Of a stretch of 64,000 nucleotides of DNA, positions 34,673 through 42,536 are shown in pieces. The DNA is from Henriciella sp. GTDB lineage: Bacteria; Pseudomonadota; Alphaproteobacteria; Caulobacterales; Hyphomonadaceae. The stretch covers positions 62,001-126,000 of the forward strand of contig JABSPZ010000007.1 in the NCBI GenBank assembly GCA_013213785.1, written 5' to 3'. Both the position numbers and the translations under genes were made by a program. The notes below the pieces were generated by a model. That model saw nothing but the letters and a program-made list of their open reading frames with translations. It searched no databases and was not told the origin of the DNA. How positions within the stretch are numbered: position 1 is the stretch's first letter; every line of letters starts with the position of its first letter.

Positions 34673-34939
34673 ATGACGCAGAACACGCAATCTTTGAGCG
34701 TGCGCGGCCCAGATGGTCGCCCGCTCACTCTTTCAGACCTCCCAAAGCCAGGCATCACGCGCTGGGTGACACGCCGCAAAGCAGAAGTTGTTGCAGCTGT
34801 TACGGGCGGTCTTTTGTCTGAAGAAGACGCCCTTCGTCGCTATGACCTTAGCGAAGAAGAGTTTTCTGGCTGGCGCGCGCTTTACTCTAAGCACGGTCGC
34901 AAAGGCCTGCGCACAACGCGCGTTCAGCAATACCGCTAA
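34673..34939 (+). CDS. sciP: SciP, inhibitor of CtrA-dependent transcription (DUF1153)
   Basis: Small helix-turn-helix protein that in Caulobacter binds CtrA and blocks transcription of CtrA targets, including flagellar genes, in G1 cells. The 88-residue sequence has the family core: GPDGRPLTLSDLPKPGITRW, VTRRKAEVVAAVTGGLLSEE, then 'RYDLSEEEFSGWRALYSKHG' and a basic end. In Caulobacter sciP sits beside the fliF operon; here it precedes a reduced fliF-fliG-fliH-fliN set by about 100 bases. A CAAGGGG/CCCCTTG hairpin follows the gene. Confidence 0.95.
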   Translation: MTQNTQSLSVRGPDGRPLTLSDLPKPGITRWVTRRKAEVVAAVTGGLLSEEDALRRYDLSEEEFSGWRALYSKHGRKGLRTTRVQQYR

Positions 34940-34948
34940 ACCGCTCCA

Positions 34949-34967
34949 CAAGGGGATTATCCCCTTG
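34949..34967 (+). terminator. Weak terminator-like hairpin after sciP
   Basis: CAAGGGG and CCCCTTG form a 7-base stem with a 5-base loop. Only TT follows, so termination is likely partial and may allow readthrough into the mini-fliF gene. Confidence 0.45.
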
Positions 34968-34983
34968 TTAAAGCGCCGTTTAC
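34968..34983 (+). promoter_or_regulatory. CtrA-box-like site upstream of mini-fliF
   Basis: TTAA, 7 bases (AGCGCCG), then TTTAC: one mismatch to the CtrA consensus TTAA-N7-TTAA(C). It is 60-75 bases upstream of the mini-FliF start, the position expected for control of a fliF operon by CtrA and SciP. Confidence 0.4.
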
Positions 34984-35042
34984 GACGCCGCCCGTAAAAG
35001 ACTACGGATCAGCCCGCATCTGCGTCGGGCGAGGGTATCGTG

Positions 35043-35684
35043 ATGCGCGCAAAAGACAGAACGCCGACAACGCGTCTTTTGGCCCTCGCTGCTTTTGTTC
35101 TAGCAGCGGGGCTTTTGTCATTGCGCGCTTTCGACCTGTTCGGCATGCCGGAAACGGAACCTGTCGGCGGCGCCGTAGAGCGCGAGCTCACTTACTTGCT
35201 TGAACCCCTCACCGGAGAGGACCGCATTCGTGTGTCCGTGACGGGGCACAGCCCGAAATCAGTCCTCGTGATGATGGATGGCGAGGTTGCCAGCGACCTC
35301 CGGGCGGTACGAACACAAATCGAAAACATTCTGGTCGCTTCAATCGGCTTCAACTTAGAGACCGACACGCTCACGCTGTCGCAGTTTCCATTTGCACGCG
35401 GGGTTGGCGCGAGCCTGACCCCATTTGAGATCGCTGAGCTCACCGGGCTTGGTCTATTGACCCTGATTTTACTGGGCGCGGCCTTCGCGCCGGCCTCAAC
35501 ATCGGCGCCTGCGCCGACCACCCCGACCCGCGAGCGCCCTGCCGAAGCGGCGCGCCAGCCCCGTCCATCACCGCAGCTGCTTGAACCCAATCAAGATCTT
35601 GAGGCGGCCTCCACCCTTGCTGAAGCCCAACCGATTCAGACGGCCAATCTGGTTCGCGATTGGATGTCTTACAGGGAGGATTAG
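35043..35684 (+). CDS. Reduced FliF (MS-ring) protein with RBM3-like domain only
   Basis: The 213-residue protein resembles the C-terminal third of flagellar MS-ring protein FliF (normally about 550). It has TM1 at about 11-28, then a single short periplasmic domain: 'ELTYLLEPLTGEDRIRVSVT' corresponds to the first half of FliF RBM3, and 'SVLVMMDGEVASD' with 'TQIENILVASIGFNLETDTL' to its second half. The long beta-collar insertion between them is gone, as are RBM1 and RBM2. TM2 is at about 131-149. A Pro/Ala/Glu tail ends in LVRDWMSYRED, the FliG-binding type of C-terminus. The ATG is used, with GAGGG seven bases upstream; a GTG precedes it. It abuts fliG directly. Confidence 0.75.
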   Translation: MRAKDRTPTTRLLALAAFVLAAGLLSLRAFDLFGMPETEPVGGAVERELTYLLEPLTGEDRIRVSVTGHSPKSVLVMMDGEVASDLRAVRTQIENILVASIGFNLETDTLTLSQFPFARGVGASLTPFEIAELTGLGLLTLILLGAAFAPASTSAPAPTTPTRERPAEAARQPRPSPQLLEPNQDLEAASTLAEAQPIQTANLVRDWMSYRED

Positions 35685-36614
35685 ATGAGCCTACCAGCCC
35701 TTTCCCGACCGCTTGATCGTCAGAACGGAATGACCCGCAGCGCCCTGTTAATGCGTGCCTTGGGCGCGAAGGCGGCTTCTGTCTGGTCAGAGCTTTCTCC
35801 TCAAGAAGCAGAGCAGCTCTCAGCCGCCATGCAGGCCCTTCCCGATGATGCGCAAGCTGAACAGAGCGCGCTTCAAGCATACGTCCAATCGATGCGGCAA
35901 TCGCCCTCGAGTCCAGTGACACAGCAGGCAAATGTCTGGGCGAAACTGTCTCGGCAAGATGGCACCTTGATCGCGAGCTTGGTTCAAAGCGAAAGCCCTC
36001 AAGTGATCGCGCTCATCCTCTCGCGCCTTTCTCCGGACGCGGCAGCGAATACGGTTCGCGCGCTCCCGCGGACCCTAGCGACGGATGCCCTTAAACGCCT
36101 CTTAAATCTCGGAGAGATCCACCCAGCCGCCCTGCGCGCGCTCGAAGTGGTTCTCGAGAACAGCCTGACGCAAAGCAAATCTGGCAAACTCGCTGGTGGG
36201 CACGAGCATGTCGCGCGCATCTTTGACAGTTTGGACAGCGGCTCTGAAAGCACGCTCCTCTCCTCGTTGGACAGCGCAGAACCAGGCGCCGGCGAGAAAA
36301 TCCGTGCGCTTATGTTCACATTCGACGATTTGGCCGCACTCGATCCAGGCAGCCTGCAGACGATCCTCGGCAGCGTGGACCGCGCCGTACTGACCGTTGC
36401 CCTGAAAGGTGCATCGCCAACCGTGTCCGACGCGTTCTTCAAGAATGTTACGCAGCGCGCAGGCGACCTGCTCCGCGAAGACATCGCTGCGGTCGGCCCA
36501 GTTCGGCGCAGCGAGATCGATGCAGCCCGCGCCGACGTCTTGCAAGTGGCCCGCGCGCTGGTGAAACGCGGCGACCTGCTGCCGCAAAATCAAGATGATG
36601 AGCTGATCGAATGA
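35685..36614 (+). CDS. fliG: Flagellar motor switch protein FliG (short form)
   Basis: Rotor protein linking MS-ring to C-ring. 309 residues, slightly short. The N-domain 'GMTRSALLMRALGAKAASVW' is divergent. The middle domain has ESPQVIALILSRLSP, where family members have Glu-His-Pro-Gln, so His is Ser. The C-terminal domain is well kept: 'FTFDDLAALDPGSLQTILGS', VDRAVLTVALKGAS (Lys241), then 'FKNVTQRAGDLLREDIAAVG' and PVRRSEIDAAR, with the torque-helix charges Arg258, Arg264, Glu265 and Asp266. Preservation of these charges argues against simple decay. GGAGG precedes the ATG; the end overlaps the FliH-like gene by four bases. Confidence 0.85.
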   Translation: MSLPALSRPLDRQNGMTRSALLMRALGAKAASVWSELSPQEAEQLSAAMQALPDDAQAEQSALQAYVQSMRQSPSSPVTQQANVWAKLSRQDGTLIASLVQSESPQVIALILSRLSPDAAANTVRALPRTLATDALKRLLNLGEIHPAALRALEVVLENSLTQSKSGKLAGGHEHVARIFDSLDSGSESTLLSSLDSAEPGAGEKIRALMFTFDDLAALDPGSLQTILGSVDRAVLTVALKGASPTVSDAFFKNVTQRAGDLLREDIAAVGPVRRSEIDAARADVLQVARALVKRGDLLPQNQDDELIE

Positions 36615-36961
36615 AACGGCGGGTCGAGTCCTTAACCCCCTACCCGTTTGCGAGTGATTTCTCTGCCCCCGAAGGTAAGACGCGCGACACCGTGCAGATG
36701 ACCACCGAAGAACTCGCCTTGCTCCTGGCTGATGCACAAGCCAGCGGCGCCTCTATTGCCCGGAACGACACGCTTGCGGAACAAGCCGACAAGCTCTCAC
36801 AGGCCTCCGCGGATCTGAAACAAGTCCTTTCCAGTATTGTGGACTTGGCCGCGCATTTGGAAACAGCTGCGATTGATGAAAGCGACCGCGCTGATGCGCT
36901 CGACCGCGTGCGCCGCCTGGCCGCAGTTGTGATTGAAGGCCAAGCTGACTTATTTTCGTGA
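36611..36961 (+). CDS. FliH/FlbE-like protein, N-terminal part only
   Basis: A 116-residue protein. The N-terminus SLTPYPFASDFSAPEG resembles the start of alphaproteobacterial FliH/FlbE, which binds the C-ring, and 'QMTTEELALLLADAQASGAS' continues into a predicted coiled coil. FliH normally has about 200 residues or more with a C-terminal domain that binds the export ATPase FliI; that part is missing. The frame ends cleanly in a stop and shows no decay. Its start overlaps the fliG stop (ATGA), so the products are translationally coupled. The assignment rests on gene order as much as on sequence. Confidence 0.65.
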   Translation: MKRRVESLTPYPFASDFSAPEGKTRDTVQMTTEELALLLADAQASGASIARNDTLAEQADKLSQASADLKQVLSSIVDLAAHLETAAIDESDRADALDRVRRLAAVVIEGQADLFS

Positions 36962-37039
36962 CGACGTTGATTTATTCATATCTCGGCAACCATTCACCGC
37001 CAGTCTGACCCTTCTCAACTATAAAAAGATAAGAGCCTC

Positions 37040-37306
37040 ATGACCGTAAATCGCGCCCTCGAAGACTCACTGATGGATGCTCCAGTTAAAGTGGATGTCG
37101 TCCTTGGCGAAGCGCGGATGCCGATGGAAGAACTTATGGGCCTTTCTGAAGGTGAGATTGTCGAACTGGAAAACCAAACCACGGATCTGGTCGATATTTA
37201 TGTTTCAGACCGCCTCATGGCGCGTGGCCGCCTGGTGGTTGCAGACGGCCAACTTGGCGTCACGTTGAGCGAAATCGTCGATAGCCGCACGCCCAGCTTC
37301 GCCTAA
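37040..37306 (+). CDS. fliN: Flagellar motor switch protein FliN
   Basis: C-ring protein made of one SPOA domain. The 88 residues cover the usual FliN core: 'MDAPVKVDVVLGEARMPMEE', LMGLSEGEIVELENQTTD, then VDIYVSDRLMARGRLVVADG and LGVTLSEIVDS. The length is at the short end of normal. The gene starts 78 bases after the FliH-like gene with a weak ribosome-binding site. In Caulobacter-type loci flbD and flhA would follow; here the next gene is a broken hydrolase on the other strand. Confidence 0.9.
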   Translation: MTVNRALEDSLMDAPVKVDVVLGEARMPMEELMGLSEGEIVELENQTTDLVDIYVSDRLMARGRLVVADGQLGVTLSEIVDSRTPSFA

Positions 37307-37316
37307 GCCAATCGGC

Positions 37317-38672
37317 TCACTCGGCTTTCAACGCCTTGTCGAAAAAGTCCAACGTCGTTTGCCACGTCTTGCTTTGAGCCTTTCCAAGGATCGGACGAGC
37401 CTCGTCCCCTTCATAAAGCAGCACGATTGGGTTTTGCCCGTCGCCAATCAATGCATGTCCTGCATCTGGGAACACCAAGAGTTCGGTCTCTAGCCCAGCC
37501 TCCGCGCGGCGCTCCGCCATGTTCTGCGACATGTGACCCGCAGATCAAAGGTCGTCTTGCTCCCCTCCAGCAACGAGCACTGCGCCTGTAATCGTTTCGA
37601 CCGGTATTCTTGCAGCAGCAACTCTGCCGATATTCTCCCAGCGACCTTCATCCATAGGTGTTCGCAACCGGCCGCGTTCCCCGCGTCCAAACTTAGCGGT
37701 CTCTCGGTACCAGTTATCACTGTACGGGACATAAGCGAGGGGTTCTCCGAGCCATGAATAAGACGAAGTCGTGCCGAGCTTCACCCCATCGCCCCACCCC
37801 TCCCAGACCACATCTGATGGCGCGATCGCGGCGACCGCATCCACCCAATCAAACCGGGTCGCTGACAGCAGTACGAAGGCGGAATTGCGCGAAAAGCCGT
37901 ACAGACCAATCTGGTCTTCATCGACGCCTGGCTGTTCGGAAAGCCAATCATAAACGCCTTGAAGGTCATCAATCGGGATATCCACGTACTGCGTTGGAAG
38001 CTCCTTCACCGAGGGCTCCGAGGGGCCGTAAATGATCTCATAGTTCGCGAAATAGAAGACCGAATATCCCTTCGCGACGAGCTGCGGCATGGTGGTTTCG
38101 CGATTGATGCCCAGCTTGTCAGCGCCACCCACGATAATGATCACAGGATGGTCGCCAGGATTTGGGTTTGGCGCGAAATAAGACCCCGGATGCGAAGGCA
38201 CCTCCATGACGTGATAGTCCTCTGGCGTTTGGGTGACATCAAAGCTGGTTGAGGCCACCGTCTCGCCGTCGACCAGCGCCTCTAAATCTATGCGAGGGGT
38301 CGCTTCCGTTGTGTCATCGCTTTCGGCACGCATGGACCAAAACAATCCGTTTGGGTCCACGCCCAGGTAAGAGCCGTCTATTGCAGCGCTTGTCGACAAA
38401 TCGATGCGACCATTCTCATCTGTTACGAACCGTGCCGAAGAGGCATAGATTTGCGTTGGCGCCCCCGGCGCATAGTGGTTCTTGATCGCCCGACGCGCGC
38501 GTATCTCAACCTCTGACTCTGGCGCCAATCCTGAGAGCACAATCTCGATGGGATCTCCGGCATATCGAATTGTGTGCGTATCGATTTCGAAGTCTTGGGC
38601 TTCGGCGGCGCCACCGAAAGCAATAGATGTCATGAGGCACGCTAAGACGCTGTATGCGGTTGATTTATGCAT
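37317..38672 (-). pseudogene. Secreted BAAT-like alpha/beta hydrolase, interrupted by a TGA codon
   Basis: Exported protein (signal peptide, cleavage near Ala-Glu-Ala-Gln, about residue 25) with an N-terminal beta domain and a C-terminal alpha/beta hydrolase of the acyl-CoA thioesterase/bile acid-CoA acyltransferase type. The nucleophile motif, normally GxSxG, reads GLYGFSRNSAFVLL. The frame stops at TGA (37545-37547) just after GGEQDDL and continues in the same frame with SAGHMSQNMAERR and the final His motif DAGHALI. Family members have Asp-Asp-Leu-Trp here, so TGG has become TGA. The catalytic His lies beyond the stop, so the truncated product should be inactive. Divergent from the LytTR regulator gene. 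Confidence 0.8.
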
Positions 38673-38848
38673 GGGTATAGATCTCCAGATGTGATGGAGC
38701 CCGCTTGGACGAGAAATCTCATCTGACGATAATTTTTCTGCAAATAGACACTCAGCGCCGGTGAATCGACAACACCCTCATAGGTAGCGCTTGAATTGAC
38801 ACGCGCACCATATACGGTTTTCTGAGCATACTCACCTGGGGACCCCGA

Positions 38849-39742
38849 ATGGACACCTCACAAGGAACACATCGCCCTTCTGTCGGCTTACTGGCTGTCC
38901 GCCGCGAACTCGTGGACGGGGTGTTAAAGTATCGCGCGTTTAAATCAGAGACGACGCTTTGGGCTGCGGCCTTTGCCTTGCTGGGGTTTGCTTACTTCAT
39001 GCAGTTCCAATTCGTCCGGGATGAGACCATCCTTCAGTCGACCCGTTCGACGCTTGTGAATGTTGTCCCGATTGTTTTGATCGGCGTCTCCATCAGATTG
39101 TTGGTTCGCCGTTATCTCGTAAACCTGCCTTTGATCGGCCAATTAGGTGCGCACTTTCTTTTAGCGATCGTGTTTACGCATGTTTGGTATGTGCTCATCC
39201 TCGTCAGCGCGAGCTTTCGCTTAGATTGGCTGACCTCAGGCATAACCCTCTCGCCCTTCTATGAGTCCGCCACGCTTTGGCAGCTCTTACAAGGCATCGT
39301 CATCTACGCCGCGATCCAGGGTTTGATTTACGGGCGATGGCTGCAGGAACGGTTGCATGAAACTGAGCTTAAACTCGAAGAAGCTCTGCAACGCGCCCCC
39401 GAGAAAGCAAGCTCTGAGACCGCAGCCGTATTTGTGAAATCAGAGGGAGAATTCAGACAAATCGACCTGGAGGACCTGACCCATATCGAGGCGAATGGGG
39501 ACCAAGTCCTTCTTAACACAAAACTGGGGCAGTTCAGCTGCAACAAGTCTCTAAGTGAATACGCAAACAAACTTGAAGATAGCGGATACATTCGAATCCA
39601 CCGGTCTCACCTGGTTCGCGCGGCCGCCATCATAGGGGCTGAACCAACCGGTGATGGTCGGCTCTCAATTCATTTGGACTCTGGAACAAGCATTATCGCC
39701 AGTCGGTCAGGAACCCGCGCCTTTAAAGACTTTACGAGATGA
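38849..39742 (+). CDS. Membrane-anchored LytTR-domain transcription regulator
   Basis: A 297-residue regulator. Four membrane helices lie between about residues 35 and 175, followed by a short coiled coil (LHETELKLEEALQRA). The LytTR DNA-binding domain is at the C-terminus: 'VFVKSEGEFRQIDLEDLTHI', EANGDQVLLNT, 'SGYIRIHRSHLVRAAAIIGA' and 'SIIASRSGTRAFKDF'. There is no receiver domain. It lies divergently from the secreted hydrolase gene 177 bases away, an arrangement that suggests it controls that gene. GGGGA precedes the ATG. Confidence 0.88.
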   Translation: MDTSQGTHRPSVGLLAVRRELVDGVLKYRAFKSETTLWAAAFALLGFAYFMQFQFVRDETILQSTRSTLVNVVPIVLIGVSIRLLVRRYLVNLPLIGQLGAHFLLAIVFTHVWYVLILVSASFRLDWLTSGITLSPFYESATLWQLLQGIVIYAAIQGLIYGRWLQERLHETELKLEEALQRAPEKASSETAAVFVKSEGEFRQIDLEDLTHIEANGDQVLLNTKLGQFSCNKSLSEYANKLEDSGYIRIHRSHLVRAAAIIGAEPTGDGRLSIHLDSGTSIIASRSGTRAFKDFTR

Positions 39743-39869
39743 TCCGCAGACGATCTGCGCACATTAAACATTACCCACAAATGCGCGGAATCGTAAAAAA
39801 CTAATAAATCAACAGATTCTGTTAACCATTTCAGCGCAACACTCGATTCCATAGAGTGGAGTGTGCTGT

Positions 39870-40874
39870 ATGCGAATGAAGATGTTTGCCGCTGAGTCCC
39901 TAGAGGCAGCTAAGGCATTGATCTTCGCGGAAATGGGCGACGATGCGATCATCTTGTCCGAACGCGAAGTGCCAGGGGGTGTAGAGGTCCGAGCGGCGAC
40001 CGACAAAATGGGTGGCGGCATGGTCCCGAGTGAATCTCGGATCCTGACCCGTTTGGGCGCAAATCCAGCACCACGTCTGGTCGAAAGTCCAATCCGAAAT
40101 CGCGTTCGCGACTCTTTATTATGGCACGGCGCGCCAGAGCGCTTCGCAGAGCGTATTGCAGATGCCGGCCTAAATGGCGGGTTTGAAAGCAAAGAGCCTG
40201 GCTCAGCCCTCGCCGCTGGTCTGGACAGCGCCATCACATGCGATCCGATCCCACCGGTGCCTCACAGAAACATCGTGCTGGTTGGCGCGCCCGGACATGG
40301 GCGTACCGCAACAGCGGCGAAACTGACGCGCCGTGCAGCCGTTGCGAAAGCGGAAGTTCTGCCCGTCGCGGCTGACCTAGACCTGACCGCAGGCGGCGCA
40401 CAGCTCGCAGCCTATCTCGAGAAAGAGCAAGGCCAGATCCGATCAGTAACGACACCAGACGATCTGTTCGCAACACTCAAACAAATCCAGGCTGAAAATA
40501 AGCGCTGCATCATCGACATGCCGGCGATCATTCCGTTTGATCAAGAAGACATGGCAAGCCTGCAGGACTTGCTCGCGGTGATCGATGCTGAACCCGTTCT
40601 GGTCATCAGCGCCGAAGGTCACCCAGAAGATCAAGCCGAGGCTGCGAAAGCCTTTGCACGCTGCGGCGTTCGCCGCGCCATCGTCACAAAACTTGATGTG
40701 ACACGTCGCCGAGGCGGGATCGTTTCAGCGCTCATCGCTGCGAAGATTTCTTTCTCTCACCTGGCCATCACCCCGTTTATCGGCGGCGGCCTGGTTCCTG
40801 CGACCCCATCCAGACTGGCTCAGTTGCTGACAGAAGACGCACCTGCCCATGTCGCCCTTAAAGGAGCCGCATAA
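39870..40874 (+). CDS. flhF: FlhF-like SRP-family GTPase with degenerate active site
   Basis: FlhF is the GTPase that positions polar flagella. The 334-residue protein starts 'MRMKMFAAESLEAAKALIFA' like FlhF and has a central N-domain (RVRDSLLWHGAPERFAERI). In the G domain the P-loop reads GAPGHGRTATAAKL, with Arg145 in place of the invariant Lys. The G3 DTAG motif is replaced by IIDMPAI, and the G2 Arg is lost. G4 TKLDVT is kept. GTP hydrolysis is therefore doubtful while nucleotide binding may remain. The ATG used has GGAG upstream; a GTG three codons earlier is an alternative. The stop shares one base with the flhG start. Confidence 0.83.
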   Translation: MRMKMFAAESLEAAKALIFAEMGDDAIILSEREVPGGVEVRAATDKMGGGMVPSESRILTRLGANPAPRLVESPIRNRVRDSLLWHGAPERFAERIADAGLNGGFESKEPGSALAAGLDSAITCDPIPPVPHRNIVLVGAPGHGRTATAAKLTRRAAVAKAEVLPVAADLDLTAGGAQLAAYLEKEQGQIRSVTTPDDLFATLKQIQAENKRCIIDMPAIIPFDQEDMASLQDLLAVIDAEPVLVISAEGHPEDQAEAAKAFARCGVRRAIVTKLDVTRRRGGIVSALIAAKISFSHLAITPFIGGGLVPATPSRLAQLLTEDAPAHVALKGAA

Positions 40875-41710
40875 TGAGCTTCCTACTTCCCAAATCGCAA
40901 GAGCGCCCGAACCAGCGCCCCCCGCGACGCGTCGAGCCTGCCTCGATTATCGCGGTCGGGTCAGGAAAAGGCGGCGTCGGCAAAACCTTTATGTCGATCA
41001 CGCTCGCAAGTGCGATGGCCCAAGCCGGTCGGCGAACGCTCTTGGTCGATGGCGACCTGGGGCTCGCAAATGTCGACGTTCAGCTGGGCATTGCACCGGA
41101 AACAGACCTCGCAGCGGTTATCGCTGGATGGGTTGAACTTGAAGATGCGGTCACGCCGGTCGATGGCGGATCTGCGAATGGCGGATTTGATGTCCTGCCA
41201 GGTCGCTCTGGTTCAGGCGCTTTGGCGGAGATGTCTTCAGAAGAAGTGGCTCGCCTCGCCGCCGGACTGTCAGCTTTGGCCCTGCAATATGATCAAGTCA
41301 TCCTGGACCTCGGCGCCGGCATCGAAGCCAACTGCATGCGCCTCGCCCGCGCGGCCGACAAAGTTCTGATGGTCATCACCGACGAGCCAACATCGATGAC
41401 AGACGCTTACGCCTTTATCAAAGTGCTGAAAGGTTACGCCCCGAGCGTTGAACAGATGATCGCGATTAATCAGTGCGAAACCAGAGCCGCTGGCCAGAGC
41501 ACTTTCTCTGCCGTGGCGCAAGCTTGCCAAACCTTCTTGGGCTTCAGACCGCAACTGGCAGGAACTGTTATTCGGGATGACGCCGTACGCGAAGCTATTC
41601 GCAGCCAAAAAACGTTAATCTCAACAAATTCGTCCTCTCAACCGATTCAGGACGTTATCGCCATTGCTCACACGCTTCTTGGGCGTACTGGGCAAGAACT
41701 TCATTCTTAA
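40874..41710 (+). CDS. flhG: FlhG (MinD-like ATPase, flagellar number regulator)
   Basis: ParA/MinD-type ATPase that normally limits flagellar number with FlhF. 278 residues. The deviant Walker A is intact (GSGKGGVGKTFMSI, near residues 29-42), Walker A' has VDGDLGLANVDVQLG and Walker B reads QVILDLGAGI. A C-terminal amphipathic helix that would bind membrane is possible but weak. The N-terminus is a Pro/Arg segment rather than the DQAxxLR motif that stimulates FlhF, in keeping with the degenerate FlhF site. AAGGAG precedes the ATG, which overlaps the flhF stop. Confidence 0.88.
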   Translation: MSFLLPKSQERPNQRPPRRVEPASIIAVGSGKGGVGKTFMSITLASAMAQAGRRTLLVDGDLGLANVDVQLGIAPETDLAAVIAGWVELEDAVTPVDGGSANGGFDVLPGRSGSGALAEMSSEEVARLAAGLSALALQYDQVILDLGAGIEANCMRLARAADKVLMVITDEPTSMTDAYAFIKVLKGYAPSVEQMIAINQCETRAAGQSTFSAVAQACQTFLGFRPQLAGTVIRDDAVREAIRSQKTLISTNSSSQPIQDVIAIAHTLLGRTGQELHS

Positions 41711-41834: not shown

Positions 41835-42536
41835 ATGCGAGTCTTACTAATTGAAGATGATAATGCGGTCGCCCGCAGTATCGAACTGATGCTGAAGGCT
41901 GCTGGCTTTAACATCTACACAACTGACCTTGGTGAAGAAGGTGTCGATCTTGGGAAGGTCTATGAGTATGATATTATCATCCTCGATCTCTCTCTGCCTG
42001 ACATCTCTGGCTATGATGTGTTGAAACAGCTGCGCATGGCGCGCGTGAACACACCAGTCCTAATTCTTTCCGGGAATCCAGACATTGAGGCAAAAGTGAA
42101 AACGCTCGGCTATGGCGCCGACGATTATCTCACCAAGCCATTCAACAAAGACGAGTTGATCGCCCGTATCACGGCCATCGTCCGTCGTTCTAAAGGTCAT
42201 GCCGAGAGCGTTATCCGCACCGGCGAGATCCTGGTGAACCTTGATGCGAAAACCGTCGAAGTCGACGAAGACCGCGTCCACCTCACCGGCAAAGAATACC
42301 AAATGTTTGAGCTTCTCAGCCTGCGTAAAGGCACGACGCTCACGAAGGAAATGTTCCTCAACCACCTGTATGGCGGTATGGACGAGCCTGAGCTTAAAAT
42401 CATCGACGTGTTCATCTGTAAGCTGCGCAAGAAACTGCAGCAGGCAACAGGCGGCGAGCACTATATCGAAACAGTCTGGGGCCGCGGCTATGTGCTTCGC
42501 GATCCTAAACCGAAGAAGGAAGCGGTCGCCGCTTAA
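41835..42536 (+). CDS. ctrA: Cell-cycle master response regulator CtrA
   Basis: OmpR-family regulator controlling division, polar development and flagellar genes in Caulobacter-type bacteria. The 233 residues are near-canonical: [20 protein letters not shown], phospho-acceptor Asp51 in [18 protein letters not shown], '[19 protein letters not shown]' and the DNA-binding '[20 protein letters not shown]', '[20 protein letters not shown]'. The C-terminus ends Ala-Val-Ala-Ala, the degron type recognised by ClpXP. GGGGAG precedes the ATG. A hairpin terminator follows. Confidence 0.98.

Follow-up and report, generated by a model that had tools for sequence, protein, structure and literature searches.

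What is left of a flagellar motor once its export machinery is gone, and what could the remainder be for? This question is raised by a locus in a 64,000-nucleotide stretch of Henriciella sp. (contig JABSPZ010000007.1, positions 62,001 to 126,000; the window hereafter), which carries, in this order, sciP, a shortened fliF (mini-fliF), fliG2, a fliH remnant and fliN2. Genomes, loci and genera are designated G, L and g with a number, labels of this analysis, in which the window's own genome is G000 and the window G000:C3:62001-126000. We lean towards reading this locus, together with the stator genes motA2 and motB2, as the core of a flagellar motor that lacks export gate, rod, hook and filament. 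Henriciella and Hyphomonas (Caulobacterales, Hyphomonadaceae), to which most of the named close relatives retrieved through FliG2 belong and which we take to be the genera g1 and g2, respectively, seem to have lost the secretion machine and filament of an old flagellum while retaining the part that turned.

All genes of the locus lie on the plus strand. A preliminary description, made from the sequence alone, had given the order sciP, mini-fliF, fliG, fliH N-terminus and fliN, followed by flhF, flhG and ctrA; the open reading frames (ORFs) are where it had placed them, and SciP, FliG, FliN and CtrA gave clear family matches. SciP, a CtrA inhibitor (DUF1153; 34673-34939), scored 125 bits with NCBIfam NF051866, over cut-off, and was found in all 32 ring loci read. 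FliG2 (35685-36614; 309 amino acids) contains N, M and C domains (Pfam, 37, 65 and 115 bits) and matched FliG in the Protein Data Bank (PDB) at E = 2.6e-54, and FliN2 (37040-37306; 88 amino acids) matched Pfam PF01052 (FliMN_C; 77 bits, E = 1.4e-21) and was present in 31 of the 32 loci, the remaining stretch ending inside FliN2. Among the 30 best-matching mini-FliF loci, our own included, sciP adjoins mini-fliF in every case and FliG and FliN lie downstream in 29, the last one running off its contig; the order is no chance arrangement.

The two shortened proteins escaped the family models: mini-FliF (35040-35684) matched no FliF family in Pfam (YscJ_FliF, YscJ_FliF_C) or NCBIfam (fliF), the FliH-like ORF (36611-36961) matched no FliH family in the Pfam and NCBIfam scans, and a PHROGs search returned zero matches for both. 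A mini-FliF profile of 25 relatives matched Salmonella FliF in the PDB at E = 2.7e-6, with aligned parts at the start and the end of RBM3 and in the C-terminal tail. Set against 12 canonical FliF of the order by hhalign, it aligned from the end of RBM3 through the second transmembrane helix (E = 4e-11). The AlphaFold model (mean predicted local distance difference test, pLDDT, 77.5; predicted template modelling score 0.50) consists of a transmembrane helix (residues 9-34), a helix-strand-strand-helix-strand unit (45-58, 63-68, 74-79, 87-102 and 110-115), a second transmembrane helix (128-149) and two C-terminal helices (183-196 and 198-209). In Foldseek, the FliF structure 6scn ranked fourth (root-mean-square deviation 2.8; TM-score 0.40 by target length; E = 7e-3) in a top ten that includes FliF chains and EscJ/PrgK domains, yet ribosome chains ranked first and second and no match reached E 0.001 or better, so that this match is supportive at most. 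With 214 amino acids, against 540-604 in the 12 canonical FliF regions, mini-FliF has an RBM3 fold between two transmembrane helices and a FliG-binding C-terminal tail, which closes with an I/V-R/E-x-W pattern like that of canonical FliF, and it lacks RBM1, RBM2 and the beta-collar. The FliH stub, 116 amino acids long against 201-224 in 10 canonical FliH, aligned with these over the N-terminal 86 columns only (hhalign, E = 6e-9), with nothing aligning past FliH column 87; two of 12 sequences had been left out of the canonical FliH alignment, the wrong ORF having been picked. It has the N-terminal motif (FxFxSDF-like) and coiled region of FliH and lacks the C-terminal, FliI-binding half. The alignments A1, A2 and A3, the last of which underlies the FliH assignment, contain 24 of 29, 25 of 29 and 22 of 27 available sequences.

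Twelve regions, drawn from four sister genera and from four further families of the order, served as canonical counterparts of the locus. Their arrangement is (flgE)-sciP-fliF-fliG-fliH-fliN-gap-flhA, with fliH mostly assigned by position, sciP and flgE undetected in one region (L154), and flhF and/or flhG detected downstream in nine. All ten g1 and g2 regions of the same comparison carry sciP, mini-fliF, fliG2, the fliH stub and fliN2 instead, trailed by flhF-flhG-ctrA in eight. Since the full-length genes occupy the same place in sister genera, the reduction occurred in situ, which bears out the earlier proposal that a Caulobacter-type fliF operon was selectively reduced in place. Among 59 FliG placed in a tree, all 32 FliG2 group together (100/100), on a long stem with 1.6 changes per column; the tree gives no firm join to the canonical FliG of the order, and the orthology of FliG2 therefore rests on position. 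Seven FliG of another type, belonging to the second flagellum considered below, form a separate group (100/99).

With a Thermotoga FliG fragment as residue ruler, and in what we take to be the E. coli numbering, K264 is present in 30 of the 32 FliG2, R281 in 31, an acidic residue at 289 in 31 and R or K at 297 in 30, the exceptions being G213 and the split gene of G249. By sequence, FliG2 combines the three FliG domains with a charged torque ridge (K264, R281, D288, D289, R297) that is weak at 288. None of the seven FliG of the second-flagellum type has K264 or R297, one having Arg at 264.

The preliminary description had supposed a genome devoid of export genes, and this has to be abandoned, for about 80 kb away on the same contig (G000:C3:176711-208505) lies an apparently complete second flagellum (FliQ and FliE were outside the gene check), with flhA, flhB, fliP and other export genes. 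Its ORFs run flhB, fliR, flhA, flgC, flgB, fliI, flagellin genes, fliK, flgD, flgH, flgA, flgG, flgF, motA, a fliM-like gene, motB, flgE, flgK, flgL, flgI, fliG, fliP, fliN, fliH, fliF and fliL; FlhA, FliF, FliG, MotA, MotB, FliP, FlhB, FlgE and FlgG were named by profile or homology search and most others by eye. The FlhA and FliP of this genome occur only inside this separate cluster, which has its own full-length fliF, fliG, fliH, fliN, flhA, flhB, fliP and motAB. A full fliF-fliG-fliH-fliN set elsewhere in the genome, which the preliminary description had named as evidence against itself, is literally there; the second flagellum is nevertheless no refutation, given that nine relatives lacking both FlhA and FliP still have the reduced locus. 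Of the earlier interpretation as a whole, reduction, selection and most of the torque residues have held and the missing export machine has not.

The second flagellum has peculiarities of its own. Its FliG (G000:C3:202401-203477; L009:2402-3478, minus strand) is very divergent, with no K264, R297 or EHPQ motif, and its FliM-like protein (G000:C3:195515-196405) matched no NCBIfam FliM model at E 0.01. A tblastn search of plasmids with the main FlhA found its best match in Paroceanicella (54.5%) and established no donor. In the sister genus g5, G155 and G240 each have two FlhA genes, one of a canonical export gate and one of a second type (868-869 and 746-750 bits), so that double systems exist elsewhere in the family too.

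Mini-FliF was found in 36 of 200 genomes sampled from the order (17 of g1, our own included, 18 of g2 and one of g7), leaving out a hit in G132 (420-amino-acid frame, E = 7e-4). Within the family it is present in 73 of 105 genomes, the 73 coming from five genera (26 of g1, 41 of g2, one of g7, two of g42 and three of g44), a count that excludes five weak hits in frames of 560-624 amino acids, the size of full-length FliF (G243, G244, G253, G258 and G260; E = 4.6e-4 to 9.2e-4), and ignores low-scoring second hits in genomes already counted. FlhA is absent from 13 of these 105 genomes and FliP from 12 of the 13; the other one, G209, has FliP and is probably simply an incomplete genome. Nine of the 12 genomes without both proteins keep the rotor, with estimated completeness of 100% (G207), 99% (G026 and G041), 95% (G211), 93% (G238), 90% (G213), 88% (G201), 86% (G202) and 80% (G248), and all of them except G213 have full-length ring genes; G200, G203 and G214 lack FlhA, FliP and rotor alike. 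The export gate of a flagellum is not found in these nine carriers, and the presence of the rotor locus in several relatives without detected export genes means that it probably serves a job other than swimming. In the FliG tree, the nine occupy four separate places (G026, G207 and G211; G041 and G238; G201 and G202; G248 beside the flagellate G247 and G249), with G213 of unsure placement, indicating that flagellum and rotor parted several times, through loss or gain of the flagellum.

Ratios of nonsynonymous to synonymous substitution rates (dN/dS), computed for the four ring genes in genome pairs with our own NG86 script, were 0.007-0.18 in seven close flagellate pairs (dS 0.12-1.9), 0.12-0.27 in the non-flagellate pair G041/G238 and 0.05-0.19 in the non-flagellate pair G201/G202. 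The ring genes are under purifying selection in close pairs, and no damage is visible in 30 of the 32 loci read. Decay as the general state of the locus was rejected on these grounds; the earlier judgement that random decay is unlikely holds as a rule, damaged copies existing nonetheless.

Searching 16 genomes with the main MotA revealed a second MotA, of 37-43% identity, which is the only MotA in all nine rotor-only genomes. With the G145 copy of this MotA2 as query, copies of at least 49% identity were found in 75 of the 105 family genomes; in the genera with canonical flagella (g3-g6 and g43) the matches listed reach 38-43% only, and three g3 genomes gave none. Tallied by hand from the search rows, 72 genomes have rotor and MotA2, one the rotor only (G221), three MotA2 only (G209, G214 and G232) and 29 neither, and all nine rotor carriers without FlhA and FliP have MotA2; this co-occurrence is not an independent test, because relatedness accounts for much of it. 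A MotB plug profile run on 20 genomes matched twice in G000, G145, G021 and G209. Seven of the nine rotor-only genomes and G214 have a single, divergent copy, the four sister-genus genomes in the set a single one with a canonical score, and G213, G248, G200 and G203 none. MotB2 is thereby present in 10 of the 12 rotor carriers tested (7/9 non-flagellate, 3/3 flagellate). Of 12 MotB2 loci, two of which come from rotor-less genomes, all have the channel segment YADFLTAL and, judged by eye, an OmpA-like domain; ten encode 229-249 amino acids, and the other two have overlong automatic starts.

MotA2 shares 40-47% identity with canonical MotA (main MotA, 55%), scored 285 bits with TIGR03818 (MotA1 family), below the cut-off of 303.8, and all eight of its PDB matches are MotA or PomA. 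E98 is conserved in 15 of 15 copies and R or K at 90 in 13; these residues pair with R281 and with D288-D289 of FliG, respectively, according to the available parts of PMC12505986. Judged by sequence and with some exceptions, MotA2 and MotB2 would together make a MotAB stator, with a MotA-family protein carrying R90 and E98 and a MotB with channel aspartate, plug region and a peptidoglycan-binding domain recognised by eye. The rotor and stator genes lie on different contigs of our genome. Neighbouring genes are common to MotB2 and sister-genus motB in all four loci read, the G000 locus sharing a long run (dehydrogenase, transporter, tRNA-protein transferase and TRAP genes) with G155 and G105 and a partial one with G095 and G185. 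MotA2 shares neighbours with three of seven canonical motA loci, namely two upstream genes with each of G155, G240 and G105. These common neighbours led us to read MotA2 and MotB2 as positional orthologues of the ancestral stators, and they suggest that identity best for MotB2.

Directly after motA2, in 15 of 15 loci and after canonical motA in none of seven, lies a gene for a protein of about 175 amino acids (own copy L215:8411-8950, G000:C2), a candidate partner and possible new part of the reduced motor. It had no significant match in Pfam, NCBIfam, PHROGs or the PDB (four Pfam families at E 0.011 or weaker only, each in at most three of the 15 members), and its model, a confident one (pLDDT 84.9), matched no solved fold in Foldseek at E <= 0.001.

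In the simplest account, the locus would encode a reduced form of an ancestral Caulobacter-type rotor, of which mini-FliF, FliG2, FliN2 and the FliH stub remain, with mini-FliF forming an inner-membrane ring and FliG2 its torque ring, while the ancestral stator MotA2/MotB2 would have been retained elsewhere on the chromosome. The parts kept would be those that make and carry torque, and the parts lost those that secrete and build. Proton flow through MotA2/MotB2 would drive FliG2 on its mini-FliF base, FlhF and FlhG would place the motor at the pole, and CtrA and SciP would time it. A powered rotor becomes more likely than a passive scaffold given that the genome retains matching stator genes at other sites. 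More tentatively, a working rotary motor may turn a minimal FliF ring in the inner membrane, serve non-swimmers as a stand-alone load sensor or as driver of an envelope process, and have recruited a new partner, encoded beside motA2. The most likely use is perhaps that of a load or surface sensor feeding cyclic di-GMP (c-di-GMP) and adhesion, the weakest step of the account. We rank it first because, in the available parts of the Caulobacter papers, mechanical stimulation of the holdfast needs an inner-membrane rotor assembly, MotAB with the MotB channel aspartate, proton flow and DgcB, and works in mutants blocked late in assembly, such as flgH (PMC7885107, PMC11580411).

Several observations weigh against a motor core of this kind. 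Site 288 of FliG2 is acidic in only 18 of 32 copies, and the FliM-binding E-x-P-Q motif is kept in 26 and lost in six. In 962 kb from our own genome, at most 29% of its 3.36 Mb, a sister-genus FliM query gave no match to an ancestral-type FliM, the normal link between FliG and FliN. At least six of the nine carriers without FlhA and FliP are metagenome-assembled genomes, and with completeness of 80-100% a missed bin is possible for each. In more distant pairs mini-FliF has dN/dS of 0.37-0.48, and FliG2 of G247/G248 reaches 0.49 at a dS of only 0.96, so that constraint is weaker or relaxed in some lineages. Damage is evident in G213 (L184), with a mini-FliF of 126 amino acids and the torque residues lost, and in the flagellate carrier G249 (L189), whose FliG2 is split; in another flagellate carrier, G217 (C1:96389-97032), mini-FliF was matched in two pieces and the copy is probably damaged. 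On the stator side, the MotA tree (without the MotA2 of G248, G021 and G026, whose automatic starts are too long) falls into three separate groups with MotA2 unjoined to canonical MotA, four of the seven canonical motA loci (G185, G095, G253 and G246) share no neighbour with MotA2, and site 90 is Gly in our own MotA2 and Gln in that of G214. MotA2, MotB2 and the partner gene all occur in G214, which has no rotor, and we also list here G200 and G203, which lack rotor, MotA2 and MotB2. Against the proposed use as a sensor, finally, stands the case that PMC7885107, in the parts available, makes against tetherless sensing in Caulobacter.

A ring that does not rotate, though unlikely, deserves most attention among the alternatives: mini-FliF, FliG2 and FliN2 would form a passive polar platform holding FlhF, FlhG and cell-cycle or c-di-GMP proteins, and MotA2/MotB2 would be kept for another reason. 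Such a platform would agree with flhF, flhG and ctrA staying beside the ring in the non-flagellate G026, G207 and G211 (G213 has flhF and a shorter flhG), with a dN/dS of 0.06-0.08 for flhF in two non-flagellate pairs, with the loosely kept FliM motif and site 288, and with the ring-less stator of G214. It fits poorly with MotA2 in 72 of the 73 ring genomes and with torque sites kept where there is no filament; moreover, the stretches read around the ring showed no flhF in G041, G238, G248, G247, G021 and G195.

A role as accessory to the second flagellum, or as a checkpoint in its assembly, seems to us improbable for the locus. FlhA accompanies mini-FliF in 64 of 73 genomes, as such a role would have it; the nine carriers without FlhA and FliP keep the rotor genes all the same, which already weakens it, and the second flagellum of our genome has a separate FliF, FliG, FliH, FliN, MotA and MotB. 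We give marginally less credence still to MotA2/MotB2 powering something unrelated, such as an envelope process, and co-occurring with the ring by shared ancestry, the ring doing something else or little. Rotor and stator genes do lie apart, both are confined to the same genera, where shared ancestry alone would yield most of the association, and G214 has the stator without the ring; their positions nevertheless suggest one ancestral motor for both, G200 and G203 are without either, and the FliG torque sites are kept. A functionless, decaying relic of a replaced flagellum, which might be read from the long FliG2 stem, the damage in G213, G249 and probably G217, the missing ring of G200, G203 and G214 and the dN/dS of up to 0.49 in distant pairs, is very hard to believe, being contradicted by the selection seen in close flagellate and non-flagellate pairs, the 30 undamaged loci and the spread over five genera.

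Several known systems come close to a motor core without export gate. With the Caulobacter-type motor (FliF MS-ring, FliG/FliM/FliN C-ring, MotAB) it shares the place of sciP-fliF-fliG-fliH-fliN, the neighbourhoods of motB and partly of motA, and most torque and channel residues. It differs in a FliF without RBM1, RBM2 and collar, a FliH without C-terminal half, the loss from the locus of flgE, flhA and the flbD-bearing gap (flbD presumably lying between fliN and flhA in the Caulobacter locus), and its persistence without FlhA and FliP. We know of no FliG or FliF partner of the gliding proteins AglRS, of ExbBD, TolQR or Zorya, and unlike those units MotA2 resembles the flagellar MotA1 family, if below cut-off. 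With them, as far as the available parts of PMC12505986 go, it has in common an ion-driven inner-membrane unit without filament. Buchnera basal bodies are likewise a flagellum reduced to a maintained, filament-less remnant and, by the accessible portions of PMC8109811, the reverse case: Buchnera retains the genes for rod, basal body and export but not motA/motB, while the present system retains rotor and stator but not its export genes. In Caulobacter surface sensing the motor is part of a real flagellum (PMC7885107, in part). The 'hat-like' membrane structure in tomograms of H. neptunium was rejected as a candidate for this system, since many flagellates show it and FliF was ruled out for it in H. 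pylori by the authors (PMC9380563, available parts).

In the open-access literature, subscription papers lying mostly outside the search, we recognised no description of this locus or of rotor and stator kept without export genes. A motility-loss survey of 2025 reported a high correlation between rotor genes and FliC, the filament gene (PMC12199754, accessible text), and a word search of the main text, as available, of a 2020 CtrA study in H. neptunium gave no FliF, FliG, MotA or FlhF (PMC7200025). Rotor and stator kept by a lineage that has no export gate would be a natural case of a motor separated from the flagellum. If so, whether a motor signals or works without a filament would become testable; for Caulobacter surface sensing this is still under debate, by the available parts of PMC7885107. 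Hyphomonas neptunium, presented as a newly established model organism and studied with mutants and synchronised cultures (PMC7200025, in part), would be a likely place for testing the reduced motor.

The SciP/CtrA context noted earlier gains from a predicted CtrA-like box, TTAAAGCGCCGTTTA, between sciP and mini-fliF (34968-34982), taking TTAA-N7-TTAA as what we presume to be the CtrA consensus. With at most one mismatch, this pattern occurs in the sciP/mini-fliF gap (plus 30 bases) of all 32 loci and in 0-4 of 100 single-base shuffles per locus, a count of predicted sites that is inflated because the loci share ancestry; the identical 15-mer is found in at least 17 of 20 g1 loci. A second one-mismatch match overlaps at 34957-34971, and an inverted repeat, AAGGGGATTATCCCCTT, lies directly ahead of the box at 34950-34966. 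Downstream of fliN2, flhF (39861-40874, plus strand), encoding a polar GTPase of the signal recognition particle type, scored 70 bits with NCBIfam FlhF, below the cut-off of 174, and over cut-off with Pfam SRP54. flhG (40874-41710, plus strand), for a MinD-like ATPase, was over cut-off with Pfam AAA_31 and below it with MinD-type NCBIfam models, its position after flhF supporting the name; ctrA (41835-42536, plus strand) scored 414 bits with NCBIfam NF045991, over cut-off. Between fliN2 and flhF, an esterase-like gene on the minus strand (37317-38672) appears to be divided into two frames, 37545-38672 and 37317-37532, through a frameshift or a sequencing error.

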